Below, in pieces: positions 8,420-37,480 of a DNA stretch of 45,178 bases (positions are counted from its first letter, which is position 1; each line of letters begins with the position of its first letter). The notes below the pieces were generated by a model, which was given only the letters and a program-made list of their open reading frames with translations, was not told the DNA's origin and did no database searches. The stretch spans positions 1-45,178 of IMG/VR virus record IMGVR_UViG_3300031741_000005. One strand, 5' to 3'. This DNA is from a virus. Made by a program: the position numbers and the translations under genes.

Positions 8420-9322
8420 ATGAGTGTATGTAATGCGATACTGAACGGAGGGGTAAACAAAGATTGTAAAACCGCTCTATCAGAAATAAAAAACCTCATC
8501 ATTACGGATAGCGATGTTAGCTTTTCGTACACAGATAAAGAGGTCTTGACAAACTGGACAGATAAAATAAAACAAGATTTATCTATTGCAGTTTTGCCGG
8601 GAGTGATAAACTATACCCCTACAACTGATGAACCGAATATCAAGGTTAATGCAGTCAGCAAAAGGAAAAAGAAAACTAACAATCCACTACCGAGTATTGA
8701 TTTTATGGTGGACATGAACGCTTGCGACTTCAAAGAGGTTCTGAATACTTTGGATGGTGGGACTTACGGAGTATTTTTTGAAATGCAAGACGGTACTATT
8801 GAGGGAAACATTGACCAGTCGGGTACTGAAATAGGTTATTTCAAACCATTTACTGCAACCGTAGATTCATTTACAAAGGGAGCGCAGGAAATTGATAGCG
8901 ATGAAGCTAATAAAGTGTATGTATTCTTTGAGAAATACACGCAGGTAAAGAATTACTTTCTATTTTCTCCGGCTTGGAGTGTAGATGAGCTTTTAGAGGC
9001 TATGCCAGTAGGTGTTTCTATGATTAAGACCGCTGTTTATGCAACAGGCGACCAAACCGTTAATGTGAACATTCGTTGTTCAACAGGATATACAGGGTTG
9101 GTTGTAGCAGACTTTGAGGCATCAGCTTCAATGAGTAACGTATCAACTCCGGCAATAACAGCGGTTGTTGATGACGGTGGAGGTAATTACACCTTAACTG
9201 TTCAAAAGGACGGGACACCCGTTAATTTAGTTGCAGGTGATATTGTAGTTCTTAGGGTTAATTTGCTTGTAACATCTGACACCACGCATTTATCTGGGTG
9301 GGTAACAATAGAGGGAGCTTAA
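8420..9322 (+). CDS. Major tail tube protein with Ig-like end
   Basis: A 300-residue protein. The N-terminal two thirds have the features of a siphovirus tail tube subunit (beta-rich, DFMVDMNACDFKEVLNTLDGG, then a loop and a second beta set). The last 95 residues look like an added Ig-like or carbohydrate-binding beta domain, rich in Val and Thr. I chose ATG 8420, three codons after a possible TTG at 8411. Tube subunits stack into the tail shaft around the tape measure protein. The assignment rests on position and beta-rich make-up. Confidence 0.7.
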   Translation: MSVCNAILNGGVNKDCKTALSEIKNLIITDSDVSFSYTDKEVLTNWTDKIKQDLSIAVLPGVINYTPTTDEPNIKVNAVSKRKKKTNNPLPSIDFMVDMNACDFKEVLNTLDGGTYGVFFEMQDGTIEGNIDQSGTEIGYFKPFTATVDSFTKGAQEIDSDEANKVYVFFEKYTQVKNYFLFSPAWSVDELLEAMPVGVSMIKTAVYATGDQTVNVNIRCSTGYTGLVVADFEASASMSNVSTPAITAVVDDGGGNYTLTVQKDGTPVNLVAGDIVVLRVNLLVTSDTTHLSGWVTIEGA

Positions 9323-28001: not shown

Positions 28002-29564
28002 ATGAGCGAAGAACAGAAGCGACTTCTCGAACAACAACTTTGGAACATTGCCAACGAGTTACGCGGCAAAATGGATGCCGATGAGTTTAGAGATTACATA
28101 TTAGGGTTTATTTTCTTTAAATACCTATCAGAAAAACAATACATTTTCGCCAACGAATTACTGGAAACCGAAACCGTAAAAGACTATTTACTAGTTACCA
28201 GTACCGATGATTTAGAAGCCATAAGAGACGATTCTTTACTTAAATTGGGTTACTACTTAAAACCCGAAGAACTCTTTAGCTCAATCGCTAAAAAAGGGAA
28301 TGGCAACACCGAAAACGAAAGCAATTTTATTCTTGAGGATTTAGGAAGTATATTAAACAGCATTGAGCAAAGTACAATGGGTACGGAAAGCGAAGATGAT
28401 TTTAACCAACTCTTTGAAGATTTAGACCTAAGCAGTACCAAATTAGGGCGTTCGCCCGATGCACGAAATACATTAATAGCAAAAGTATTACAACACCTCG
28501 ATAAAATTGATTTTGCCTTAAAAGATTCCGATAGCGATGTTTTGGGCGATGCCTACGAATATTTGATAGGGCAATTTGCAAGTGGTGCAGGTAAAAAAGC
28601 AGGTGAATTTTACACCCCTCAACCCGTATCTAAAATATTAGCTAAAATAGTTACTACAGGTAAAAAACGAATTAAAACCGTTTACGACCCTACTTGTGGT
28701 AGTGGTTCGTTATTGTTGCGTGTAAACCGCGAGGCTGAGGTAAGTGAGTTTTTCGGGCAGGAACTAAACCGTACTACCTACAATCTTGCACGTATGAACA
28801 TGATTTTGCACGATGTACATTACAGCAAGTTCGATATTAGGCAGGAAGATACTTTGGTAGAACCGCAACACTTCGACCAACGTTTTGAGGCGATTGTAGC
28901 CAACCCACCATTTTCGGCAAAGTGGAAAGGCAAAGACAACCCACTAAACGAAAGTGACGAACGTTTTAGCCAGTACGGAAAAATAGCACCCACCAGTAAA
29001 GCCGATTTTGCTTTTGTGCAACACATGATACACCAATTAGCCGACAACGGAACAATGGCGTGTGTATTACCTCACGGGGTTCTGTTTAGAGGTTCAGCCG
29101 AAGCAACCATAAGAGAATATATAATTGAGAAACAAAACTATTTAGATGCTGTAATCGGGCTTCCTGCAAACATCTTTTACGGCACAAGCATACCCACCTG
29201 TATTTTGGTATTAAGTAAATGCCGTGTTAATAGCGATAACATTCTGTTTATTGATGCCAGTAAACACTTTGTAAAAGCAGGTAACCAAAACAAACTTACC
29301 GATGCTAATATTGATAAAATAGTTGATACCTACCGAGAACGAAAAGCATTAGATAAATACAGTTACGTAGCCCGAATTGATGAGGTAAAAGGAAACGACT
29401 ACAACCTGAATATACCACGTTATGTAGATACTTTTGAAGAAGAAGAACCAATTGATTTAAGCGAGGTTGCAAACGAACTTAAAGCTTTAGATAAAGAAAT
29501 AACTGCCACCGACACCACCATTGCCGACTTTTGTAAACAACTAAATATTGAAACGCCTTTTTAG
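28002..29564 (+). CDS. hsdM: Type I R-M methyltransferase subunit HsdM
   Basis: A 520-residue N6-adenine DNA methyltransferase subunit. Features: N-terminal helical HsdM domain (residues 1-165), GEFYTP (201-206), SAM-binding motif I DPTCGSG (229-235), and catalytic motif IV NPPF (301-304). HsdM with HsdS methylates both strands of a bipartite site. Codon use (more GC-ending and CCC, AAC codons) differs from the phage genes before it, which suggests recent transfer from a host. The stop TAG is two bases before the hsdS start. Confidence 0.95.
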   Translation: MSEEQKRLLEQQLWNIANELRGKMDADEFRDYILGFIFFKYLSEKQYIFANELLETETVKDYLLVTSTDDLEAIRDDSLLKLGYYLKPEELFSSIAKKGNGNTENESNFILEDLGSILNSIEQSTMGTESEDDFNQLFEDLDLSSTKLGRSPDARNTLIAKVLQHLDKIDFALKDSDSDVLGDAYEYLIGQFASGAGKKAGEFYTPQPVSKILAKIVTTGKKRIKTVYDPTCGSGSLLLRVNREAEVSEFFGQELNRTTYNLARMNMILHDVHYSKFDIRQEDTLVEPQHFDQRFEAIVANPPFSAKWKGKDNPLNESDERFSQYGKIAPTSKADFAFVQHMIHQLADNGTMACVLPHGVLFRGSAEATIREYIIEKQNYLDAVIGLPANIFYGTSIPTCILVLSKCRVNSDNILFIDASKHFVKAGNQNKLTDANIDKIVDTYRERKALDKYSYVARIDEVKGNDYNLNIPRYVDTFEEEEPIDLSEVANELKALDKEITATDTTIADFCKQLNIETPF

Positions 29565-29565
29565 T

Positions 29566-30768
29566 ATGGAAGCAGTAAAAAACAAAATACCAACATTGCG
29601 GTTTCCTGAGTTTAGTGAAGGATGGGAAGAGTTTAAATTAGAAAAAAAATATATCCTAATTTCAGGGCAACATCTAAACCCAGATGAATATTCTATCAAA
29701 AAACAAATAGGATTGTCACCATATTTTACTGGTCCCTCTGATTTTACAAATGGCATGGAGGACATTACGAAATGGAGTCTAAAGAAAGGAAAAGTAGCAA
29801 ATAAAGGAGATATTCTTTTTACAGTAAAAGGAAGTGGAGTTGGCTCTGCAATGTTGTTAATGCTTGATGAGGTTACTATGGGAAGGCAGCTTATGGCTAT
29901 AAGTTCTTCTGATTCTTCTACTGAATTTTTACACCATAAACTAGCCTTGTATAAAAATTACTATATAGCTTTAGCAAGTGGTAATATGATTCCCGGACTT
30001 TCAAGAAATGATATACTAACGACTAAAATTGATTTCCCCACCCTACCCGAACAAAAAAAAATAGCCACCTTTTTAACGGCAATTGACAGCAAAATAGAGC
30101 AAGTCACCAAAAAGAAGCAGCTTTTAGAGCAATACAAAAAAGGCGTAATGCAGCAAATCTTTAGCCAGCAACTGCGCTTTAAAGATAAAAATGGGAATGA
30201 TTTTCCTGATTGGGAGGAGAAGAAGTTGGGGGATTTCTTAATACCCTGCATAAGAGAGGTTGAAAAGCCAAAAATCAAATACCTTGCAATTGGAATAAGA
30301 AGTCATTGTAAAGGAACTTTTCAAAAACCAAATGCAGACCCCACAAAAATTGCAATGGATAGACTTTTTATTGTGAAGGAAAATGATGTAATTGTAAATA
30401 TCACTTTTGCATGGGAAGGAGCTATTGCATTAGTTAAAAAAGAAGATGATGGTGGCTTAGTATCACATAGATTTCCAACATATACTTTTAATAGTGATTT
30501 AGTTCTATATCATTACTTTAAGTATATTTTTATTCAAAAGGAATTTAGGTTTATGTTAGGAATGATTTCTCCAGGTGGTGCTGGTCGAAATAGAGTTATG
30601 AGTAAAAAAGATTTTTTAAAACTTAAATGTGAAGTACCCTCAATCGAAGAACAAACCCAAATAGCGAATTTTCTAAGTGCTATTGACACTAAAATAGAAT
30701 TGGCAAATACAGAGTTAGAAAAAACACAGGAGTTTAAAAAAGGCTTGTTGCAGCAAATGTTTGTATAA
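29566..30768 (+). CDS. hsdS: Type I R-M specificity subunit HsdS
   Basis: A 400-residue specificity subunit with two target recognition domains, each followed by a conserved helix: LPEQKKIATFLTAIDSKIEQ (near 160-185) and IEEQTQIANFLSAIDTKIEL (near 360-385). The repeat of start-like phrases (PTLRFPEFSEGWEEFKL and NGNDFPDWEEKKLGDFL) marks the two halves. It decides which sequence HsdM methylates. The start at ATG 29566 avoids the longer frame that overlaps hsdM. Its last codons and stop lie inside the first attC-like site (GTATAAC). Confidence 0.95.
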   Translation: MEAVKNKIPTLRFPEFSEGWEEFKLEKKYILISGQHLNPDEYSIKKQIGLSPYFTGPSDFTNGMEDITKWSLKKGKVANKGDILFTVKGSGVGSAMLLMLDEVTMGRQLMAISSSDSSTEFLHHKLALYKNYYIALASGNMIPGLSRNDILTTKIDFPTLPEQKKIATFLTAIDSKIEQVTKKKQLLEQYKKGVMQQIFSQQLRFKDKNGNDFPDWEEKKLGDFLIPCIREVEKPKIKYLAIGIRSHCKGTFQKPNADPTKIAMDRLFIVKENDVIVNITFAWEGAIALVKKEDDGGLVSHRFPTYTFNSDLVLYHYFKYIFIQKEFRFMLGMISPGGAGRNRVMSKKDFLKLKCEVPSIEEQTQIANFLSAIDTKIELANTELEKTQEFKKGLLQQMFV

Positions 30769-30895
30769 CTATGAATATAAAACATTTGGCGGATAGTGCT
30801 AACTTTAAGGTAGTTACACCTAATATAGTTTGTAGCGGTTTGACAGATAAGTGCTCCGAAATGCCAAACGATTTCATATACTGAACGTTATAAAC
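30763..30895 (-). repeat. attC-like site 1, abutting hsdS
   Basis: Outer ends are GTATAAC (30763-30769) and GTTATAAAC (30887-30895), with TATAAC/GTTATA fully complementary. Inside, 30770-30790 (ATATAAAACATTTGGC) pairs with 30863-30881 (GCCAAACGATTTCATATAC) with a few mismatches. The total length of about 133 bases is within the range of known attC sites. It closes the cassette of the gene at 30905, and its outer end contains the hsdS stop codon. Confidence 0.75.
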
Positions 30896-30904
30896 AATAA
30901 AAAA

Positions 30905-31093
30905 TTATTCCAGCCCACGCAGGAGAATTTCAATTTCATCAATTCTATTCTGCCTTTCATTTATTTCTATCGTAGTCTTTGTCTTAAACTGTTTTAATCC
31001 TGCCTTCAACGCTTTTAGGGTTTCTTTTCTATCTTTAATATATTCTTCTTTGGTTACTTCAACCACTTTTCTTTCGATTATTGTGTATCTCAT
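30905..31093 (-). CDS. Cassette protein, charged helix, unknown
   Basis: A 62-residue protein, highly charged and almost wholly helical (Lys/Glu-rich, residues 16-60), likely a coiled coil. It fills cassette 1, whose ends GTTTATAAC (31105-31113) and GTTATAAAC (30887-30895) are exact complements over 9 bases. The ATG lies about 12 bases after the cassette edge, with an A/T leader. I recognise no family. Confidence 0.6.
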   Translation of the reverse strand: MRYTIIERKVVEVTKEEYIKDRKETLKALKAGLKQFKTKTTIEINERQNRIDEIEILLRGLE

Positions 31094-31104
31094 AATTTTT
31101 AAAA

Positions 31105-31203
31105 GTTTATAACAAAAACTATATTTAAAAGCCTTTGTTGGTTTATATTTTCAATCTTATTTTTTCGTTGTCGGCTTCAAAACATAGCCAAACCGTTATA
31201 GGC
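31105..31203 (-). repeat. attC-like site 2
   Basis: Ends GTTTATAAC and GTTATAGGC. Inner arms CTATATTTAAAAGCC (from 31119) and GGCTTCAAAACATAG (31173 onward) pair. The arm CATAGCCAAACC next to the GTT recurs at sites 5, 6 and 13b. Confidence 0.75.
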
Positions 31204-31228
31204 AATAAAATTTAATTGCCCACGCACG

Positions 31229-31567
31229 CTATTTAAGCTCTTCCATTATTTCATTTAGTCTTTTAATTACTTCACTAAAATCATCATGCCTATTCATGTT
31301 TTTTACATAAATAGCTACTTCCTCATTAACGTCCCATAGCATATCATCTCTAGGTATATCGTGTGTTCTTATTGTTACTTCAAAATCTTTTCTTTCCTTC
31401 CCGAAAATTAAATTATTACAACCTATAACATCAGGTATAATGCATTCTTTTACTAAGTTTTCTACCTGTTCAATTGCTGCATTCCATGCTTTATCTTCTC
31501 CGCAGTCTTCATTTTCTATTATGAAATTACGTAAATCCTTTAATAGGTTTGTTTTAAAATCTTCCAT
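31229..31567 (-). CDS. Cassette protein, unknown
   Basis: A 112-residue acidic protein with an N-terminal helix (FKTNLLKDLRNFIIEN), a middle beta part (DFEVTIRTHDI) and a C-terminal helix (FSEVIKRLNEIMEEL). It ends with TAG just before the motif GCGTGGGC seen after several cassette genes. Its 3' cassette edge is CTATAAC (site 2); the 5' edge is a short, degenerate site at 31600-31631. No family recognised. Confidence 0.55.
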   Translation of the reverse strand: MEDFKTNLLKDLRNFIIENEDCGEDKAWNAAIEQVENLVKECIIPDVIGCNNLIFGKERKDFEVTIRTHDIPRDDMLWDVNEEVAIYVKNMNRHDDFSEVIKRLNEIMEELK

Positions 31568-31599
31568 TATATTTATTTTAGTGGTTATTTATCCGTAAA

Positions 31600-31631
31600 A
31601 AAAACGACACCATACCTTAACCGTTGTATGC
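31600..31631 (-). repeat. Half-type att site 3
   Basis: GTTGTATGC (31623-31631) with the CATACC-TTAACC arm, but no matching AAC end or hairpin on the other side. GTTGTATG is the exact complement of CATACAAC at 32415, the other end of the methyltransferase cassette. Confidence 0.6.
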
Positions 31632-31708
31632 AAGTGCTTAGTTCGGTTCTTTTAATCAAGTTTGTACTAATTTGACCAAAAAGAAAAAGCCCTCGCACTT
31701 CTATTTTT

Positions 31709-32380
31709 TCAAAATAGTTTGAGTTGGCGTTTGTGGTTGTCAAATCGCTGTACTGCATCATTAAAGTATTTACTATCAATCTCGCAAACATCTAAATCAA
31801 ATCCTTCAACATCGCTTGCAATGGCAAAAGATGAACTTCCTCCATGTGTGTCTAATAATTTAAAACCTTTTTTTGCGTAATTTAAAAGGCAAAATCGGTA
31901 TAAATCAATTGGCTTTTGTGTTGGATGTATTTTTATATCAATCTTGTTAATATAAGCATCAGCCCTGCTGTAATAATAAATTTTAAAAGTATTAAAAGAA
32001 GTTTTTGCAAGTTCGCCCTCTTTAAATTTGCCGCTATTCCCCTTATTCCAAATAATAACACCTTCTAAATCTACATTATGAAAGTAATTACCTCCCCATA
32101 TAATTTGCTCTTTACTAATCCTAAGTAATTGCTCGAAATATTCAGGTGGTGGAACTTCATCATCCCAGTTTGTTTTGTGGTAAGTTTTAAAAGTTCCACT
32201 TTCTTTATTAAAACCTTTTTTACCTCCTAAATCGTTTTGTGTTTCGTCTTGGCTTATTCCGTAAGGTGGGTCAACTATTGCCAAATCATAATAATTATCA
32301 GGCTTAGTTTTCATAAACTCGATATTATCACAGTTATAAAAACAAATCCCTCCCCTTTTTTCTTTTTTAAATTCGTTCAT
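31709..32380 (-). CDS. DNA adenine methyltransferase in a cassette
   Basis: A 223-residue orphan methyltransferase with catalytic motif DPPY (37-40) near the N-terminus, HPTQKP (152-157), and a SAM-binding motif that reads DTHGGSSS (177-184) rather than the usual D-F-G-SG form. The order (catalytic motif first) is that of the beta class of N6-adenine or N4-cytosine enzymes. No restriction enzyme partner is near. It may protect phage DNA or regulate it. The cassette ends CATACAAC and GTTGTATG are exact complements. A related, deleted cassette lies at 35339-35495. Confidence 0.85.
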   Translation of the reverse strand: MNEFKKEKRGGICFYNCDNIEFMKTKPDNYYDLAIVDPPYGISQDETQNDLGGKKGFNKESGTFKTYHKTNWDDEVPPPEYFEQLLRISKEQIIWGGNYFHNVDLEGVIIWNKGNSGKFKEGELAKTSFNTFKIYYYSRADAYINKIDIKIHPTQKPIDLYRFCLLNYAKKGFKLLDTHGGSSSFAIASDVEGFDLDVCEIDSKYFNDAVQRFDNHKRQLKLF

Positions 32381-32414
32381 TTAATCAAATTTTGTGGTTA
32401 ATAATCGCACCAGA

Positions 32415-32470
32415 CATACAACACTAAATATAAACCATTGAAAAAACGGTTCATATTACCACCGTTATAC
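32415..32470 (-). repeat. attC-like site 4
   Basis: A compact site of 56 bases: CATACAAC, arm ATATAAACC, loop ATTGAAAAAAC, arm GGTTCATATT, then GTTATAC. Size and plan match the shortest known attC sites. Closely related to site 11 (35489-35545), with the same loop. Confidence 0.8.
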
Positions 32471-32623
32471 CCTATTTGCCCAACGCTCCCACAAATCGAG
32501 AATAAACAATAATCGTTTAACTTTACGTTCGTATTTTTTAGGTACTTTATTTGGTCGTATAGAGTTATCTGAACCGCTTAATTTACGGCTCAGCACACTC
32601 CATTTTATTAATTCTTTGCTCAT
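32465..32623 (-). CDS. Small basic cassette protein
   Basis: A 52-residue protein, strongly basic (SRKLSG, KVPKKYERKVKRLL) with a tryptophan-rich helical end (ILDLWERWANRV). Its start overlaps the stop of the gene at 32623-32853 (TAATG), so both are in one cassette. Its own stop is inside the GTATAAC edge of site 4, so the cassette is packed with no spare sequence. Too short for many gene finders. Family unknown. Confidence 0.55.
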   Translation of the reverse strand: MSKELIKWSVLSRKLSGSDNSIRPNKVPKKYERKVKRLLFILDLWERWANRV

Positions 32624-32853
32624 TATGCAGTCCAATTTAAACGTTCTAAATCACTTTCAATTAAATCTAAAATGTATATTTCTTCCATTTCATTAGTAGA
32701 GTAAATCATAATACCGTCAGATGTTTTAACAATCCAACCTTTTTCATTTGTTCTGCCTAAAATAATGTCATCACTATTTTGTATTTTGAAGGCAATTACA
32801 TTTATTTCATTTTCTCTTGTTATTACGTTTTGACCTTTTTTATTGAATTTCAT
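32623..32853 (-). CDS. Cassette protein, beta-rich, unknown
   Basis: A 76-residue protein with alternating short strands (NVIAFKIQNSDDIILG, GWIVKTSDGIMIYS) and an acidic C-terminal helix (YILDLIESDLERL). First gene of a two-gene cassette whose edges are GTATAAC (32969) and GTTATAC (32464), exact complements. A promoter-like box lies at 32887, inside the cassette, so it can be expressed wherever it lands. Confidence 0.6.
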   Translation of the reverse strand: MKFNKKGQNVITRENEINVIAFKIQNSDDIILGRTNEKGWIVKTSDGIMIYSTNEMEEIYILDLIESDLERLNWTA

Positions 32854-32886
32854 AATTTCTTTTGTTTTGTTTTAATTATTATACTA

Positions 32887-32894
32887 CAAATCTA
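32887..32894 (-). promoter_or_regulatory. Promoter -7 box inside a cassette
   Basis: Read on the minus strand this is TAGATTTG, a match to TAnnTTTG, about 35 bases before the ATG of the gene at 32853. Confidence 0.55.
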
Positions 32895-32968
32895 CAATAA
32901 TCTGTACTAACTACCAAATAAAAATACACTTTTCTGTAAATTATTTTCCAAACACTCAAAAAAACAGG

Positions 32969-33036
32969 GTATAACACTACCTATATTGCATATTTTGTGA
33001 AAAACAAAATCCGACAACATAGCCAAACCGTTGTAG
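32969..33036 (-). repeat. attC-like site 5
   Basis: GTATAAC, arm CTATATTGCATATTTTG, short loop, arm CAAAATCCGACAACATAG, then CCAAACC and GTTGTAG. The arms pair over most of their length. 68 bases. Confidence 0.75.
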
Positions 33037-33042
33037 GTAATG

Positions 33043-33321
33043 CTAAAACGGTATTTCATATTTTATTCCGTGCTTATCAAACACCTGCTTAATTTTTTCT
33101 TCGTGTGTTCCTGTAAATCTCAGTCCATTAATTGTAATAACTTCTTCACTACCATCAAGTAAGTCTTTCAATAACGCACTACCTACAACAACACCTATAC
33201 GTAATTGCTGTGTTAGTGCTTGTTTATCAAGTTCTAGTTTTTGATTTTCCTTTTTTAGAAGCTCATTCTCTTTTAATAAGTTAATGTTCACTTTACTATT
33301 ATCTGTTATTATTTTAGTCAT
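33043..33321 (-). CDS. Coiled-coil cassette protein
   Basis: A 92-residue protein with a coiled coil (residues 12-42, LLKENELLKKENQKLEL) and a small alpha/beta end with VITINGLRFTGTHEEKI. The plan resembles small phage or plasmid DNA-binding or accessory proteins, but no family is recognised. The cassette edges GTTGCGG and CTACAAC are only partly complementary, so one of them may have been changed by later insertion. Confidence 0.55.
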   Translation of the reverse strand: MTKIITDNSKVNINLLKENELLKKENQKLELDKQALTQQLRIGVVVGSALLKDLLDGSEEVITINGLRFTGTHEEKIKQVFDKHGIKYEIPF

Positions 33322-33346
33322 TATCTATAAAATTTAGTGTTAATTT

Positions 33347-33379
33347 CCGCAACTACGCATAGCCAAACCGTTACCTGCC
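33347..33379 (-). repeat. Half-type att site 6
   Basis: CCGCAAC, TACG, then the shared arm CATAGCCAAACC and GTTACCTGCC. Only about 17 bases lie between AAC and GTT; there is no long hairpin. Confidence 0.6.
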
Positions 33380-33577
33380 ATTATCCAACACAACAGGTTC
33401 AAGTGGCAATTCCCAAAAATTCCAGTCTGCAAATTGGTCAGCCATAACTTTATGGTATTCAAAATCAATCTGCGTTACATTTATCAAAGTACCTTTTTTT
33501 AAAGTCCCAATACTAATGCTTCCTCTATTTTGGAAATCACGAGTTAATCTATATAATCCTTTATCTAATATTAACAT
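33371..33577 (-). CDS. Cassette protein, unknown
   Basis: A 68-residue beta-rich protein (LILDKGLYRLTRDF, GSISIGTLKKGTLINVTQID) that may be a small SH3-like barrel. I chose ATG at 33577; a longer frame to 33604 would read through the cassette edge. The cassette has ends GTTACCTGCC (33370-33379) and GGCAGGTAAC (33593-33602), exact complements over 10 bases; the stop codon lies inside one of them. Confidence 0.6.
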   Translation of the reverse strand: MLILDKGLYRLTRDFQNRGSISIGTLKKGTLINVTQIDFEYHKVMADQFADWNFWELPLEPVVLDNGR

Positions 33578-33592
33578 ATTTTTAAAATTAAC

Positions 33593-33730
33593 GGCAGGTA
33601 ACAATGTATATAAAAAATACAGGGTTAAGTGCTGATTTATGCAGTTGTACCACTTTTTTAAGTTTTGTGAGTATCAGGTAGGTTTCTGCTTTTATCTCCT
33701 GTACTTTTCATATACTCAACGTTAGGCAAC
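33593..33730 (-). repeat. attC-like site 7
   Basis: The clearest full site: GGCAGGTAAC, arm TGTATATAAAAAATACAGG (to 33623), about 75 bases of loop, arm CCTGTACTTTTCATATACT (33698-33716), then GTTAGGC, a canonical GTTRRRY core. The arms pair in 16 of 18 positions. Confidence 0.8.
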
Positions 33731-33731
33731 A

Positions 33732-34160
33732 TTACCACCATAATCCTAAAAAGATTTTATGAAAGTTTTGTAATCCGTTATCTAATATTTCTTTTTCTTT
33801 ATCGGTTAAGATTAAAGAACCTCTATCTCTTGCTACTAACTTCATGGCACTCAAAAAAGATTTAATTTCATCCATTTGCTCAACCTCAATTTCGCTTGGT
33901 GTTATTTTTATATATAACTCTAATCTTGGTATTATAAAATTAGCAATCGTATCTCTTAATGACCATGTTTCGCTTTCGTCAAACCCTTTTTCTATTCTTT
34001 GTTTAATAAAATCTTTTTCTCTATCATCATTTTCGTCTGTGAGAGAAAAACAAATATTAGGTATTCCAGAATATTTAATATCAACGTTACCTAACAGTGT
34101 ATAAAAATCATTGCTTGCATCATGTTTTAATTTAGGTATTTTGCTATTTTTTGGTATCAT
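33732..34160 (-). CDS. Cassette protein, phage-type, unknown
   Basis: A 142-residue protein with the phrase ESETWSLRDTIANFIIPRLELY, which I recall in small hypothetical proteins of many phages and integrons (often as ETW-LD-TIA-FILPRL). The N-terminus (residues 1-45) is beta-like, and the C-terminal 60 residues are helical, ending FLGLWW. Function unknown. Its cassette ends in the canonical core GCCTAAC on the minus strand. Confidence 0.6.
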   Translation of the reverse strand: MIPKNSKIPKLKHDASNDFYTLLGNVDIKYSGIPNICFSLTDENDDREKDFIKQRIEKGFDESETWSLRDTIANFIIPRLELYIKITPSEIEVEQMDEIKSFLSAMKLVARDRGSLILTDKEKEILDNGLQNFHKIFLGLWW

Positions 34161-34190
34161 GTTTTAATTTAAAAGTTATTAATATTTATT

Positions 34191-34223
34191 TCGCAACGCT
34201 TCTTATACTAAACGTTAGCAATC
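34191..34223 (-). repeat. Half-type att site 8
   Basis: TCGCAAC, GCTTCTTATACTAAAC, then GTTAGCAATC. It contains the stop codon of the gene at 34215. No hairpin. Confidence 0.55.
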
Positions 34224-34427
34224 AGTTTGCTCCATTTTTAATGAGCATTCATCTATACTGTAACAGTACTCGCCTTTGCGAAATCTACACTTAAATCCAA
34301 GTTCTCCGCAAACCGCCACTGCGTTATTGCTAACATTAAATAAACCCAATAAAATTTTATCGGCTTCTTTTATACTAATCATTCCTTTTGCAAGTAATTT
34401 TGTCGTTTCTTTTATTTTATCTTTCAT
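34215..34427 (-). CDS. Cysteine-containing cassette protein
   Basis: A 70-residue protein with an N-terminal helix (KIKETTKLLAKGMISIKEAD) and five cysteines in the second half (CGELGFKCRF, EYCYSIDEC, TDC) that could bind zinc. The stop TAA is part of the GCTAAC cassette edge. No family recognised. Confidence 0.55.
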   Translation of the reverse strand: MKDKIKETTKLLAKGMISIKEADKILLGLFNVSNNAVAVCGELGFKCRFRKGEYCYSIDECSLKMEQTDC

Positions 34428-34457
34428 GTTTAAAATTTAAAAGTGTTTATTCTTGCC

Positions 34458-34544
34458 GTTGTATTCCATTTGCCTGTCAAAAAGGTGGTTTAAAATGAAA
34501 CGAACTGCCAGGCAAACGGTAGCCGGAAAACCCGGCAATACAAC
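34458..34544 (-). repeat. ORF-less mini-cassette A
   Basis: A unit of 87 bases with exactly complementary ends GTTGTATT (34458) and AATACAAC (34537). It holds two hairpins: TTTGCCTG with CAGGCAAA, and GCCGG with CCGGC around an A-rich loop. No ORF of useful size. It could encode a small structured RNA or a terminator, or be a bare recombination unit. Confidence 0.55.
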
Positions 34545-34607
34545 AAGGTGTAAATTGCATTGCCCGTTTCATTTATTATAATTCGCTGCTTAATCATACC
34601 GTTTTAA
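34537..34607 (-). repeat. attC-like site 9
   Basis: AATACAAC, arm AAGGTGTAAATTGC, loop, arm GCTTAATCATACC, GTTTTAA. The arms pair with mismatches; the GTT core is not canonical. Confidence 0.55.
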
Positions 34608-34642
34608 AAGTTTTGCCCTCGCGCATAAGTTTTTTCAAAACT

Positions 34643-34858
34643 TTAATGAATCTTAACAACCTCAGACATTCTTACTTCGTTTTCTTTGCACCAAGTCTTT
34701 TTGTCAGATTTAAATGATAACTGGATTTGGTATTCAATTCCACCAATAACAACTTCTCCTAATCCTGAATCAATATCAAGACCTTTATTTTCTTTCTCAT
34801 TAGCACAATCACATAATTGTTCAATAGTAATTTCTACTGTTTTTGCAAAATTATTCAT
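34643..34858 (-). CDS. Cassette protein, partner of RHH-like gene
   Basis: A 71-residue acidic protein (VEITIEQLCDCANEKENKG, then a beta part ending in EVRMSEVVKIH). Its start overlaps the end of the RHH-like gene by 8 bases, so both are translated as a pair. The pairing is like a toxin-antitoxin module, but I see no toxin motif. Near the stop are a hairpin and the GCGAGGGC motif. Confidence 0.55.
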   Translation of the reverse strand: MNNFAKTVEITIEQLCDCANEKENKGLDIDSGLGEVVIGGIEYQIQLSFKSDKKTWCKENEVRMSEVVKIH

Positions 34859-35195
34859 AATTTTCGTCCTCCATTTCAGTTTTTATAGATTCTATTGCTG
34901 TTTTGCATACGTGTTTAACGTATTCTAAAAAATCAATTAATGATTCAAATTTAAAATCACCATAATCAAACGTTTCATCTTGAATCCCCTGATAAGTTTG
35001 AATTAAATAGTTCCAAATAAACCTCATGCTTTGCCCATCTTCAACAGCGTATGAAGCCATTTCTGTTACATTACTAAATTCATAATGTTTTGCGACTAAA
35101 TTTTGAATGTAATTTTTCAGGTCAGTATCATTTTTAACCGCCATGATTTTTAATTCCTTTACAATTTCATCTGGAATCTCGATAATCTTTTTCAT
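34851..35195 (-). CDS. RHH-type DNA-binding cassette protein
   Basis: A 114-residue protein whose first 40 residues (KKIIEIPDEIVKELKIMAVKN and then DTDLKNYIQNLVAKHYE) fit a ribbon-helix-helix domain as in CopG/Arc-type antitoxins. The remaining part is helical and acidic and may bind the partner protein encoded next. A -7 box lies at 35221. Function as a plasmid-like or phage-maintenance regulator is inference. Confidence 0.6.
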   Translation of the reverse strand: MKKIIEIPDEIVKELKIMAVKNDTDLKNYIQNLVAKHYEFSNVTEMASYAVEDGQSMRFIWNYLIQTYQGIQDETFDYGDFKFESLIDFLEYVKHVCKTAIESIKTEMEDENYE

Positions 35196-35220
35196 ATAAA
35201 TATATTTTATAATTAATATT

Positions 35221-35228
35221 CAAATATA
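35221..35228 (-). promoter_or_regulatory. Promoter -7 box of the RHH-like cassette pair
   Basis: On the minus strand this reads TATATTTG, a full match to TAnnTTTG, about 26 bases before the ATG at 35195. Confidence 0.55.
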
Positions 35229-35338
35229 TATAATATATCCCGCATATACAAACAATATAAGAAAACCCTCCCTAAAAACTTTTAAAACTACATTCGTTCA
35301 TTTAATCAAAGTCAGTGTTCAACGCAACTTACACAAAC

Positions 35339-35495
35339 GTTAGCTGCAAGTGCTACATTCGTGCATCTAATCAGCCTTTGTAGGTTCATCCGTAAAAGAA
35401 AAAAGCCCACGCTCTTCAACTTTTTCAAAGTTGTTGGGTTTTGGTTCAGTTCTATTAATTAAGTTTTATCGTTTAAAGTCGCACCAGTAGGTAAC
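35339..35495 (-). pseudogene. Deleted methyltransferase-type cassette
   Basis: A unit with nearly complementary ends (GTTAGCTGC and GTAGGTAAC, 7 of 9). Its minus-strand start (CTGGTGCGACTTTAAAC) is like the leader of the methyltransferase cassette (CTGGTGCGATTATTAACC), and its other half (AACTTTGAAAAAGTTGAAG followed by GCGTGGGC) is like the sequence after that gene. The coding part is missing. I read it as an internally deleted relative. This, with the flanking A/T-rich DNA (35196-35338), explains the gene-free stretch 35196-35538. Confidence 0.55.
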
Positions 35496-35545
35496 ACGGT
35501 ATAAAAGCCATTGAAAAAAACGGCTCTTATACCCATCGTTAGCGG
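35489..35545 (-). repeat. attC-like site 11
   Basis: 57 bases: AGGTAAC, AC, arm GGTATAAAAGCC, loop ATTGAAAAAAAC, arm GGCTCTTATACC, CATC, GTTAGCGG. The arms pair in 11 of 12 positions. Sister of site 4, with the same loop. Confidence 0.8.
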
Positions 35546-35838
35546 TAATTGCCGCTGTTAACTTGCATTTTACGTACTTTGTTTATAAGGTACTCGATTA
35601 GTCCCCATTCTAATCTTACTTCTTTAGCAGCAAGTTTCAATTCCTTTTCAGTTATTTGTCTGCGGTGTTTACCATCGGTGCAACTACCGCTAACAACGGG
35701 TAATAAATCATTTTTATTTACTAAGTTATTATCTTCTATGAACGCTTCCATCCAATCAATATCAATTTGGTAATCCTCCTGCATTTTATCAAGTTCCATA
35801 AACTTTTTGTAATGCTCAATAATTTTAGTTCTATTCAT
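35539..35838 (-). CDS. Cassette protein, helical, unknown
   Basis: A 99-residue protein from ATG 35838 (another ATG at 35844). It is helical: an N-terminal amphipathic helix (IIEHYKKFMELDKMQEDY), a polar middle with GSCTDGKHRRQITEKEL, and a C-terminal helix (RLEWGLIEYLINKVRKM). The stop is part of the CGCTAAC edge. No family recognised. Confidence 0.55.
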   Translation of the reverse strand: MNRTKIIEHYKKFMELDKMQEDYQIDIDWMEAFIEDNNLVNKNDLLPVVSGSCTDGKHRRQITEKELKLAAKEVRLEWGLIEYLINKVRKMQVNSGNYR

Positions 35839-35888
35839 AATCATTTGTGTTTAATTGTCCGTAAATAAAAACGCTTCATACCCAAACC

Positions 35889-35995
35889 GTTCAATTGCAT
35901 TGCCTTCACTGCGTTACGGCTGTTTTTCCATTGCTGCTCAAAAATTGAAAATAATTTTATCGTTTCGCAATTCCCAAAACACCATGCAATTGAAC
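35889..35995 (-). repeat. ORF-less mini-cassette B
   Basis: A unit of 107 bases with exactly complementary ends GTTCAATTGCAT and ATGCAATTGAAC (12 bases). The longest ORF is 15 codons. The 5' edge is a half-type site with arm CATACCCAAACC. The last part is like the segment at 37433-37480 (CGCAGTGAAGG, and TTGAAC next to the core). Confidence 0.6.
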
Positions 35996-36320
35996 GTGCC
36001 GTCTAAACTCGAAAGGTATCAGTACTTGACCGTGAAGTCAACGCAATAGAACAAAGTCTAAACGCAATTTAACGGCAGCACTTATAAGTCCTTTCGACTT
36101 TACTTTTTGTTCCCAGCCTTCAAAACAATATTTACAGCTTCACAAAATGCACCGTATGTCATAGCTGGTATTACTTGTCCTTCTTTCATTTTACCATTCA
36201 TTTCTATCCATGTATCAGCATAACAATCTGATAAATTGTCGAATAACTTTTTTAATTCCATCGTAATAATATTTTTTTAAATTCTTTCACAAAAACTAAA
36301 CTGCGTTTAGACGGCACGTT
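35993..36320 (-). repeat. Perfect 16-bp inverted repeat enclosing a small gene
   Basis: AACGTGCCGTCTAAAC at 35993-36008 and its exact complement GTTTAGACGGCACGTT at 36305-36320 enclose 296 bases with one 53-codon gene. The outer edges continue as TTGAAC and GTTATA, so the whole looks like an attC site whose loop holds a gene. Confidence 0.75.
36100..36261 (-). CDS. Small protein in a hairpin loop
   Basis: A 53-residue protein (start MELKKLFDNLSDCYADTW, end VNIVLKAGNKK). It is mixed in charge and probably helical at both ends. The gene lies wholly between the arms of the perfect inverted repeat at 35993/36305. It has an A/T-rich leader of about 40 bases. Family unknown; the reading frame is open over its length and the start and stop are ordinary. 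Confidence 0.55.
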   Translation of the reverse strand: MELKKLFDNLSDCYADTWIEMNGKMKEGQVIPAMTYGAFCEAVNIVLKAGNKK

Positions 36321-36720
36321 ATAAAACATTTGCCGACGCACGCTCAAAATAGAACACTATCGGTTTTATTGTTTCATTAATTAATCCATATCTTTTTGCA
36401 ATCTTATATTGAGTGCTTACTTCATTCAGGTGCTTCATAAATCCCGCAATTAAATTCCTGAACTCTTCCAAACTCATTGAGTGTTTGTTAATATTGCAGC
36501 TTGGACAACTTGGTATCTGGTTATCAATATTTAATCGCTCAGGATGCTCGTAAGTGCCATCATGCACGAATTTTGATTTATCCTTATTATATTTCATATT
36601 TCTACGCACTGGTAGCAATTCATCTACGTGCCATCCCTTTTGTAATGTGTCGCCACAATAAGCACATTTACCTCCGTATTTACTAAATATTATTTCTCTA
36701 TCTTTTTTAGAAACTGCCAT
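36319..36720 (-). CDS. HNH nuclease in a cassette
   Basis: A 133-residue HNH-type nuclease: CAYCGDTL (residues 19-26), a middle with WHVDELLPVRRN, where the usual His-Ile/Val-Asp phrase lies, and PSCPSCNINKHSMSLEEF near residue 91, giving the second zinc pair and the last His. The cassette has exactly complementary ends GTTATAAAAC (36318-36327) and GTTTTATAAC (36732-36741). HNH proteins in integron cassettes are common; this one could be a nuclease of defence or of packaging, and there is no partner to tell. Confidence 0.8.
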   Translation of the reverse strand: MAVSKKDREIIFSKYGGKCAYCGDTLQKGWHVDELLPVRRNMKYNKDKSKFVHDGTYEHPERLNIDNQIPSCPSCNINKHSMSLEEFRNLIAGFMKHLNEVSTQYKIAKRYGLINETIKPIVFYFERASANVL

Positions 36721-36731
36721 CGCTCAAGAAC

Positions 36732-36803
36732 GTTTTATAACAACGGCTCATATTTAATTGCCGTTGAAAAATTGTGCTTAGTTTTTGAAGTTTATCGTTA
36801 GGC
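36732..36803 (-). repeat. attC-like site 13
   Basis: GTTTTATAAC, hairpin CAACGGC with GCCGTTG around 12 bases, a T/A-rich arm, then GTTAGGC, a canonical core. 72 bases. Confidence 0.65.
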
Positions 36804-36830
36804 AACTAAACATAGCCAAACCGTTACCAA
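36799..36830 (-). repeat. Half-type att site 13b
   Basis: AGGCAAC, TAAA, shared arm CATAGCCAAACC, GTTACCA. It overlaps the core of site 13. Confidence 0.55.
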
Positions 36831-37069
36831 TCATTTTGCCCACAATTAAATGTTTCGTTGCAATCAAGGCATACTCTATTCGCAGCTTCAATAGTATTTA
36901 TTGAATTACAGTGTGGACAAACCGAATTGCTAACACAAGCTAAATTGCAGTTTTTAAACTCAGATACTAAGCTGTTCCACTGTCTTTTAGTTTCCGCTAA
37001 ATCTTTCATTGGGTAGTATTTAACAACTTGTTTAAATAGCCCATCCATTTCATCAATTAATTTTTCCAT
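36824..37069 (-). CDS. Zinc-ribbon cassette protein
   Basis: An 81-residue protein with an N-terminal helix (residues 1-40, acidic then aromatic) and a C-terminal zinc ribbon: CPHC at 52-55 and CLDC at 68-71, with a further Cys at 76. Zinc ribbons of this type often bind nucleic acid or other proteins. Cassette edges are GTTACCA and CGACAAC. No closer family. Confidence 0.6.
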   Translation of the reverse strand: MEKLIDEMDGLFKQVVKYYPMKDLAETKRQWNSLVSEFKNCNLACVSNSVCPHCNSINTIEAANRVCLDCNETFNCGQNDW

Positions 37070-37097
37070 AATATTTTTTTAAATTCCGTTTAAAAAC

Positions 37098-37116
37098 CGA
37101 CAACTAAACGTTACCC
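37098..37116 (-). repeat. Half-type att site 14
   Basis: CGACAAC, TAAAC, GTTACCC. Only 6 bases lie between the AAC and GTT ends. Confidence 0.5.
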
Positions 37117-37117
37117 A

Positions 37118-37388
37118 CTACAAATTGCTTTTAAAAAATTCATCGACTTCTATTTCAAAATATCTCTCTGAAAATTCCGCGTATCCAGCAACTTCATGTT
37201 CTTCTAAAAAAGCCACACAATTGTTTGCGTTGCTGGGGAACACCATGTAAATTTAAAATTTCAACCTTTAGTAGTGCAGCTTTATACCCGTCTGCAAATC
37301 CAGCACATTCTTCTTGCGTATGTTTCTTGTAAATATAGTCAGTTAAATCATCCGCTAACATTAATTTTTCTTTGTCTTTCTTGTTCAT
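37118..37388 (-). pseudogene. Frameshifted cassette gene
   Basis: From ATG 37388 the frame encodes MNKKDKEKLMLADDL ... AALLKVEILNLHG and then turns to QQRKQLCGFFRRT and stops at 37194. Another frame picks up near 37240 with PSNANNCVAFLEEHEVAG and ends ... DEFFKSNL at a TAG beside the cassette edge (37118), as is usual for genes here. A one-base change in the GGGG run near 37237-37240 would join them into a protein of about 89 residues. Either a real mutation or a sequencing error. Confidence 0.5.
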
Positions 37389-37420
37389 TTTTATTTTATT
37401 CAATCGGTTTAAATTCAAAA

Positions 37421-37480
37421 CTTACATTTACCGTTCAATGTCATTAACTCCGCTAAGGCTCCGTTTATTTCTTATATAAC
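37421..37480 (-). repeat. Right edge of the array, mini-cassette C
   Basis: A half-type site with ACC and GTTCAATG (37433-37440) is followed by a stretch similar to the end of mini-cassette B and by ATATAAC at 37474-37480. Beyond this point the phage genes resume, with only an 11-codon frame before the gene at 37525. Confidence 0.45.

Follow-up and report, generated by a model that had tools for sequence, protein, structure and literature searches.

An integron-type gene cassette array without an integrase in a Bacteroidota phage and its putative link to patch-less Xer-like recombinases

The I2/patch domain of integron integrases is thought to be essential for cassette recombination at folded sites, and a gene that runs in the direction of its attC site is a usual, although not strictly defining, feature of a cassette. 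Arrays of attC sites without an integrase (CALINs) have already been published for phages, P12002L included, and one of the P12002L sites was found to be a substrate of IntI1 in E. coli (Qi et al., 2023; PMC9892861). Folded single-stranded phage DNA can also be used by Xer enzymes which have no I2, as in the integration of CTXphi by the host XerCD (Escudero et al., 2016; PMC4792948). The evolution of integrons poses a chicken-and-egg problem, namely how selection could act on attC sites while the integrase domain that recognises them was still missing, and a viral origin of integrons has been offered as speculation (Escudero et al., 2016; PMC4792948).

The cassette array of the phage window

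The window is the whole stretch of DNA analysed, 45,178 nucleotides of the IMG/VR virus record IMGVR_UViG_3300031741_000005. Its phage encodes a portal protein with 32.5% identity to that of the Polaribacter phage P12002L. From 30763 to about 37440 the window holds an integron gene cassette array without an integrase, that is, a CALIN in a Bacteroidota phage. Open reading frames and site analysis resolved about 15 units, in which almost every gene lies on the − strand, in agreement with the initial annotation, and the attC-like sites are all on the + strand. The two ends of a unit (GTTxxxx...xxxxAAC) are inverted repeats, 8-14 bp long and specific to that unit, and an attC-like hairpin comes after each. 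An R' partner within the same unit, paired over 8-14 bp, was found for 12 of the 18 candidate R'' cores. The sites are listed below, with E-values from the covariance model R1.

S1, 30763..30893, +, attC-like; R1 E 0.13; R' GTATAAC overlaps the hsdS stop codon; R'' GTTATAAAC pairs over 9 bp with the R' ending at 31113
S2, 31107..31201, +, attC-like; R1 E 0.028; hairpin common to phage L180 as far as the GTT
S3, 31422..31629, +, attC-like, long form; R' ends at 31429, R'' at 31623; end pairing 31195/31429, 8 bp; left-arm consensus present after the AAC
S4, 32416..32470, +, attC-like, short form; R1 E 1.7e-8 (in training set); R' pairs over 8 bp with the R'' at 31623
S5, 32969..33036, +, attC-like; R1 E 2.5e-5 (outside training set); end pairing 10 bp; identical hairpin in phage L184
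S6, 33180..33376, +, attC-like, long form; end pairing 33030/33189, 10 bp; overlaps the 5' end of its own gene
S7, 33593..33727, +, attC-like; end pairing 33370/33602, 10 bp, GTTACCTGCC at 33370 with GGCAGGTAAC ending at 33602
S9, 34326..34464, +, attC-like; end pairing 34214/34334, 9 bp
S10, 34537..34607, +, attC-like; R1 match at 34538, E 0.35; end pairing 34458/34544, 8 bp
S11, 35275..35345, +, attC-like; end pairing 34601/35288, 14 bp
S12, 35489..35544, +, attC-like, short form; R1 E 1.7e-9 (in training set); fold z −2.25, the best hairpin of the array
S13, 35683..35895, +, attC-like, long form; end pairing 35538/35694, 10 bp
S14, 35984..36324, +, attC-like, unusually long imperfect hairpin; end pairing 35889/35995, 12 bp; perfect 16-nt arms at 35993-36008/36305-36320
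S15/S16, 36735..36829, +, attC-like; R'' cores at 36797 and 36823; R1 E 0.051; end pairing 36318/36741, 10 bp; homology to phage L168 stops at the 36823 core
Right end of the array, 37110..37440, +; R''-like cores at 37110 and 37433, no R' partner found

The cassettes between these sites include a DNA methyltransferase and an HNH endonuclease, while Pfam and PHROG gave no function for the remaining small genes.

31623..32463, −, methyltransferase cassette; N6/N4 DNA methyltransferase gene 31709-32380 (PF01555, E 2.3e-9); homologous cassettes with the same exact GTT..AAC limits in phage loci L002 and L003
32464..33030, −, cassette with gene 32623-32853; found again in the unrelated phage L184
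34601..35338, −, two-gene cassette, genes 34643-34858 and 34851-35195; 14-bp end pairing
36318..36796, −, HNH endonuclease cassette, gene 36319-36720 (phrog_2118, E 7.5e-36) with its stop codon inside the R'' TAAC; end pairing 10 bp
Within 30887..37432, −, other cassettes with small genes: 30905-31093, 31229-31567, 33043-33321, 33371-33604, 33732-34160, 34215-34427, 35539-35844, 36824-37069, 37194-37418

The hsdMS genes were considered as a first, sense-oriented cassette and rejected, as the R' at the hsdS stop has no upstream GTT partner of at least 7 bp.

The absence of an integrase, noted initially, was confirmed: TIGR02249 (integron integrase) had no match anywhere in the virus record, and an HMM search in six frames found no tyrosine recombinase in it. 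The element therefore lacks the integrase of a complete integron. What it has are the features of a CALIN, namely complementary cassette ends, an attC fold with covariation, and movement of units at G|TT. Rfam at its gathering threshold had no match in the window.

GTT-headed inverted pairs, 100-900 bp apart, numbered 10 at 9 or more perfect bp, compared with 1.3 in dinucleotide shuffles (maximum 5), and seven at 10 or more bp, compared with 0.43 (maximum 3); outside the array the window contained none at 10 bp. R1 was built here from sites mostly preselected for L-box complementarity, with 35489 and 32416 in the training set. Searched on both strands, it gave seven sites on + and zero on −. 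These recover seven of the eight hairpin positions first proposed, and the eighth (33593) is backed by end pairing. Four of the matches are weak on E-value alone: 31107 (0.028), 36735 (0.051), 30763 (0.13), and 34538 (0.35). R1 also found four P12002L sites outside its training set (E 5e-7 to 1.1e-4), the sites being on + throughout and the genes on −. In the Cellulophaga phage Nekkels_1, which has a related methyltransferase, no R1 site was present within the stretch examined. Because single-strand folding energy was ordinary for most sites (best z about −1.7 to −2.25, in 4/11), the argument for them relies on pairing, covariation, and comparison rather than on free energy. Covariation in the attC fold was 0.310 versus 0.103 when shuffled, for sites that were mostly preselected. 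The pairing test was also run without preselection: in 128 viral sites chosen by their flanking cassettes alone, L-box complementarity of at least 5 was found in 77%, versus 26% when mispaired. In the same 128 sites the left spacer was shorter than the right by 93:4, and IntI-adjacent sites agree (40:1).

Exchange of whole cassettes between phages

The search for portal relatives among viral contigs found a single distant fragment, and therefore other phage pairs were used in place of a same-species comparison. Viral loci were fetched with a 16-mer of the site, which makes the phage sample non-random. The right half-site proved common to more than 100 IMG/VR stretches, with arrays in dozens. 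Phage arrays of this kind are thus not rare, whereas the initial view had been that a dense array of this size in one phage is unusual.

Phages that are 99% identical were found to differ by swapped or reordered whole cassettes, with junctions exactly at G|TT. Between L153 and L161, whose flanks are 98.9 and 99.3% identical, one 307-bp cassette stands against about 2.04 kb, again with G|TT junctions. The cultured Polaribacter phages P12002L and P12002S are also among these 99%-identical phages; they share a methyltransferase cassette of 976 bp, 99.9% identical between them, in swapped order. Cassette 32464-33030 of the window occurs in L184 at 93% identity, with exact G|TT junctions and the right-hand hairpin included. 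With seed matches removed, 14 of 45 breakpoints fell at R'', versus 2.4 expected; a raw count of 55/154 versus 14.9 was discarded in favour of this one because the fetching 16-mer had biased it. Cassette matches with differing left flanks started at GTT in 13 of 13 cases. Related phages thus differ by gain, loss, and reordering of whole units exactly at GTT cores, which was the check proposed in the initial annotation, and its description of these units as integron-type cassettes is upheld.

The candidate recombinase and the polarity of the cassettes

Further analysis revealed that in Bacteroidota chromosomes arrays of the same attC type lie downstream of an Xer-like recombinase without the IntI-specific I2/patch insertion. 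Such a recombinase stood beside these sites in 15/30 loci of a phylum sample versus 0/10 controls, and in 13/20 of a Flavobacteriaceae sample versus 0/60 shuffled loci; under a strict test, half of the patch-less recombinases had no array. Absence of the insertion was judged by alignment, in which 43 IntI-specific columns were missing from 43 patch-less and 2 phage proteins. At 17 loci an attI-like palindrome was found 47-116 bp past the recombinase stop codon, before the first GTT. The adjacent array shares the polarity of the recombinase and has this attI-like boundary, which is the layout of an integron-like platform. Against TIGR02249 the array-associated recombinase P0005 scored 210.6 bits in a split match (cut-off 265), and it does not qualify as IntI. 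Against the XerA family NF040815 (cut-off 220), P0006 scored 236 bits and P0005 218, just under. The best structure matches were XerA/XerC-like. In the recombinase tree IntI forms one clade, and patch-less forms are not firmly resolved as ancestral. A PF00589 gene was absent from 47 of 50 array-bearing viral records, and in two of the other three a patch-less recombinase adjoins the array. The association of this recombinase with phage-type attC sites, as read from the sequences, appears to be new.

The initial annotation proposed that a host integron integrase acts in trans. Action in trans is retained, the phage having no integrase of its own, whereas classical IntI gives way to an Xer-like enzyme without I2/patch as the most likely candidate. 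It is unlikely that the array is an ordinary CALIN whose standard attC sites are recombined in trans by a classical host IntI with I2/patch, the Xer-like recombinases beside arrays being bystanders. Classical IntI is common in the phylum (105 of 395 Bacteroidota genomes in the sample have a match above the family cut-off), and IntI1 acted on P12002L_attC2 in E. coli (Qi et al., 2023; PMC9892861). However, sites beside IntI differ in form: their left arm carries one extra base and their spacers are 2/6, as against a 1x1 mismatch and 3/5-6 spacers in the sites of phages and of patch-less chromosomal arrays. The viral-site model R1 matched patch-less arrays on the recombinase strand and 0/6 IntI arrays, and the layout of patch-less recombinases with a palindromic attI-like site is constant.

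In phage arrays 207 genes were reversed relative to attC polarity and 15 ran the same way (9 and 2 in the window array). Conversely, 209 genes followed attC and 12 were reversed in patch-less chromosomal arrays, with 57 and 6 in IntI arrays. Phage cassettes therefore depart from the CALIN description in which the gene runs in the attC direction, and this antisense rule appears to be new. Since phage genes are inverted relative to attC and chromosomal genes are not, the phage cassettes resemble a pool of their own, exchanged from phage to phage, more than they resemble host cassettes on the move. The earlier proposal that the phage carries cassettes between hosts is not supported, and no close phage/chromosome cassette pair that would indicate such transfer was found.

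Polarity was assigned by the C that precedes GTT, the A that follows AAC, and the asymmetry of the spacers, marks for which IntI and patch-less chromosomal arrays served as calibration. A misreading would make the other strand the functional attC strand and give phage genes the usual orientation. This is very improbable, as two independent marks agree and chromosomal arrays with the same site type point 209:12 the opposite way. Moreover, in sequence comparison the exchanged unit confirms the polarity reading: in + polarity it is the right-hand hairpin that travels with the unit (window/L184, P12002L/S, 13/13 GTT starts), whose gene is thus antisense.

Promoter stem-loops occur in T4-like phages, and the sites are intergenic in a convergent, gene-dense region; phage accessory regions are in general mosaic. 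Nevertheless, regulatory stem-loops (terminators or promoter stem-loops) spread by homologous recombination are a far-fetched explanation, for unit-specific complementary ends would have no role in them and breakpoints fall at the G|TT base pair instead of being scattered through the hairpin. Transposon-like units (MITE or IS200/605-type) would likewise end in inverted repeats, but can practically be dismissed, as the repeats vary per unit apart from GTT/AAC and neighbours abut head to tail with one site in common.

A proposed mechanism and comparison with known systems

Taken together, these are probably integron-type phage cassettes worked mostly in trans by a patch-less Xer-like recombinase. 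Each unit would extend from the TT of one R'' core through the G of the next and hold a gene and an attC-like site. The proposed site plan is R' TAAC, 3-4 nt, L', an inner stem with a 1x1 A/C mismatch, L'', 5-6 nt, and R'' GTTA. The site would fold as single-stranded DNA and be cut between G and TT, and sequence comparison shows units to be excised, inserted, and reordered at that point. In a phage without integrase something must act in trans, and the candidate is the enzyme found just upstream of Bacteroidota chromosomal arrays and occasionally in phages, whose activity here is presumed from that association. The observed antisense orientation would let cassette genes be read with the early operon of the phage. 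As the cassettes hold mostly small unknown genes along with the DNA methyltransferase and the HNH endonuclease, the likely benefit would be fast turnover of anti-host or anti-defence accessory genes.

More broadly, it is reasonably likely that Bacteroidota have a second kind of integron, with a patch-less Xer-like integrase, its own attC form (1x1 mismatch in place of an extrahelical base on one side), and a palindromic attI. A parallel phage pool would carry genes inverted relative to attC, usually without and sometimes with the enzyme. Such a system could be an ancestral or an independent route to cassette recombination on folded single strands. If true, patch-less recombinases beside attC arrays and phages with the same sites, and in some cases with the enzyme, would provide a living test case for the chicken-and-egg problem. 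Virulent marine and environmental phages would have an exact means of exchanging accessory genes, methyltransferases for example, and the consistent antisense genes suggest that their pool is kept apart from the bacterial one.

Among known systems, published phage CALINs are likewise integrase-less attC arrays in virulent phages with methyltransferase cassettes, but the window array is larger; the antisense rule across many phages, precise swaps between sister phages, and the patch-less recombinase link do not appear to be described there (Qi et al., 2023; PMC9892861). Chromosomal integrons of the sedentary kind, whose integrase is IntI (TIGR02249), have the same unit-specific inverted ends, G|TT core, and attC polarity marks, and, like patch-less chromosomal arrays, adjoin a tyrosine recombinase. 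They differ in the I2/patch insertion of IntI and in attC sites with single-sided extrahelical bases. The array-associated recombinase resembles the simple Xer-like tyrosine recombinases, which include the XerA family NF040815 and an 'integron-like' subgroup (Smyshlyaev et al., 2021; PMC8138268). In the loci analysed here, however, it stands next to cassette arrays and an attI-like palindrome. Finally, CTXphi integrates its own genome, whereas the arrays described here store small cassettes and shuffle them.

The array and its sites

The 45,178-base IMG/VR virus record encodes a terminase, a portal, a tape measure and a RecT-like annealing protein, and its portal shares 32.5% identity with those of Polaribacter phages P12002L and P12002S. 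At the boundary between the late (+) and early (-) gene blocks, from 30763 to approximately 37440, lie about 15 small head-to-tail units with genes on the - strand. Units open with GTTxxxx and contain, ahead of the next hairpin, its exact reverse complement, xxxxAAC. Inverted end pairs of at least 9 bp were observed 10 times versus 1.3 in dinucleotide shuffles, and those of at least 10 bp 7 times versus 0.43; end pairs of 10 bp were absent from the window outside the array. A partner of 8-14 bp is present for 12 of the 18 cores. The end repeats are unit-specific, as expected if each unit has to close its own folded site, and in varying from unit to unit they are unlike transposon ends. A type I modification locus with hsdM and hsdS-like genes (28002-30768, +) borders the array, and its hsdS stop codon overlaps R' of the first site; no accompanying hsdR gene was noted in the window.

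The right half-site CATAGCCAAACCGTTR is present in at least 120 IMG/VR stretches, and the left half-sites, partners located by end pairing alone, have TAACANNRGSTATA in common. Among 128 viral sites selected solely for flanking cassettes, 77% contained complementary L boxes (at least 5), versus 26% with mispaired arms, and the left spacer was shorter than the right by 93:4. A covariance model (R1) was built from 21 short sites, mostly preselected for the L box; its covariation score (0.310 versus 0.103) is therefore supportive only. R1 matched seven sites in the window, all +. In P12002L, an isolated phage outside the training set, it matched four; these too are all +, with genes on -. Measured from core to core, viral sites fall into size classes of about 40-55, 80, 115-120 and 180-190 nt; those of the longest class overlap the 5' end of a reversed gene.

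Cassette exchange and gene orientation

The initial annotation had described an integron-like cassette array, for which related phages should vary at the GTT cores, and this was borne out. Viral contigs L153 and L161 match at 98.9% identity on one flank and 99.3% on the other. Between these flanks, a lone cassette of 307 bp in one contig is replaced by about 2.04 kb with several cassettes in the other; identity breaks off and restarts exactly at the CGTT core. A 93% identical copy of window cassette 32464-33030 was found in locus L184 between unrelated flanks, with both junctions at G|TT. Moreover, P12002L and P12002S are cultured sister phages, plaque-purified on one Polaribacter strain, in which a 976-bp methyltransferase cassette (99.9% identical) is swapped in order; several further junctions between blocks of 99.6-100% identity are at CGTT. 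Across viral loci, which were obtained through a site 16-mer, and with seed-bearing matches excluded, an R'' core falls within 4 bp of the block end in 14 of 45 cases versus 2.4 expected; among shared cassettes whose left flanks differ, every one (13 of 13) starts at GTT.

Changes within units were also seen. In L184 (reverse complement, 8774-9271) one internal gene of the 32464-33030 cassette is replaced by an unrelated one, the remainder and both cassette ends being kept. The methyltransferases at window 31709-32380 and L004:5001-5636 share 42 identical N-terminal residues and diverge beyond (DNA about 90% identical over 147 bp); the apparent recombination point is within the gene, not at attC.

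Polarity was read from marks calibrated on arrays beside classical IntI, where 45 of 48 sites have C immediately ahead of GTT and the shorter spacer is the left one by 40:1, reading away from attI. By these marks, chromosomal genes run with attC, both in IntI arrays (57 versus 6) and in arrays beside a "patch-less" recombinase, without the IntI-specific I2/patch insertion (209 versus 12). Phage cassette genes run 207 against attC and 15 with it. The exchanged unit takes the right-hand hairpin, not that adjoining the gene's stop codon, which agrees with antisense polarity. Several window genes (33371, 34215, 35539, 36319, 36824) have their TAA stop inside the TAAC of R''. We infer that the early operon reads in one direction with the sites facing the other, and that phage cassettes form a separate pool.

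A patch-less recombinase beside related arrays

No tyrosine recombinase was found in the window, and 47 of the 50 viral records with arrays likewise have none. In Bacteroidota genomes matched by R1, an Xer-like recombinase (P0005, P0006) adjoins the arrays. With relatives chosen irrespective of arrays, at least two chained cassettes were found at 15 of 30 patch-less recombinases in the phylum sample of a Myroides genome, versus 0 of 10 distant recombinases; in a Flavobacteriaceae sample the counts were 13 of 20, versus 0 of 60 shuffled loci. The chromosomal array lies downstream of the recombinase in the same direction. At 17 loci examined, the first GTT is 47-116 bp past the recombinase stop codon, typically with a palindrome of variable sequence between. 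Such attI-like palindromes (e.g. at L311, L430 and L433) differ in sequence between genomes and keep their structure, suggesting that they may be recognised by shape.

In two phage records a patch-less recombinase stands beside the phage's own array; here the array is upstream of the enzyme gene and carries reversed genes. The contigs encoding it directly beside the array are L329 (the 168-kb record of L173, a very large phage) and L328 (the record of L166). On a Flaviramulus contig (L059/L420), a methyltransferase related to the window's occurs together with a chromosomal array and a patch-less recombinase, in the usual orientation.

From this association, the patch-less recombinase would be the cognate enzyme of the phage sites. 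R1 matches patch-less arrays, on the same strand as the recombinase, but matched none of six IntI arrays, and site form differs accordingly: phage and patch-less sites have a 1x1 A/C mismatch and 3/5-6 spacers, whereas sites beside IntI have one extra base on the left and spacers of 2/6. A host IntI could do the work instead; IntI1 is active on one P12002L attC site (Qi et al. 2023, PMC9892861). Of 395 genomes sampled from the phylum of genome G003, 105 have classical IntI above the curated cut-off, a frequency far beyond the scarcity described for complete integrons in Bacteroidetes complete genomes (IntegronFinder 2.0).

Comparison with known integrons

The array, polarity and enzyme findings are all comparative. 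Phage CALINs (attC clusters lacking an integrase), P12002L included, were already published (Qi et al. 2023, PMC9892861). Neither patch-less integrons nor antisense phage cassettes were found described in the literature searched, which covered only a minority of subscription journals and preprints. In alignment, 43 IntI-marking columns, including the I2/patch segment, are missing from all of the Xer-like recombinases; among solved structures their best matches are XerA/XerC-like, with IntI4 aligning only as two separate pieces. No Xer system with an I2-like adaptation was known to Escudero et al. 2016 (PMC4792948), who discussed how attC and the I2 domain might arise without each other.
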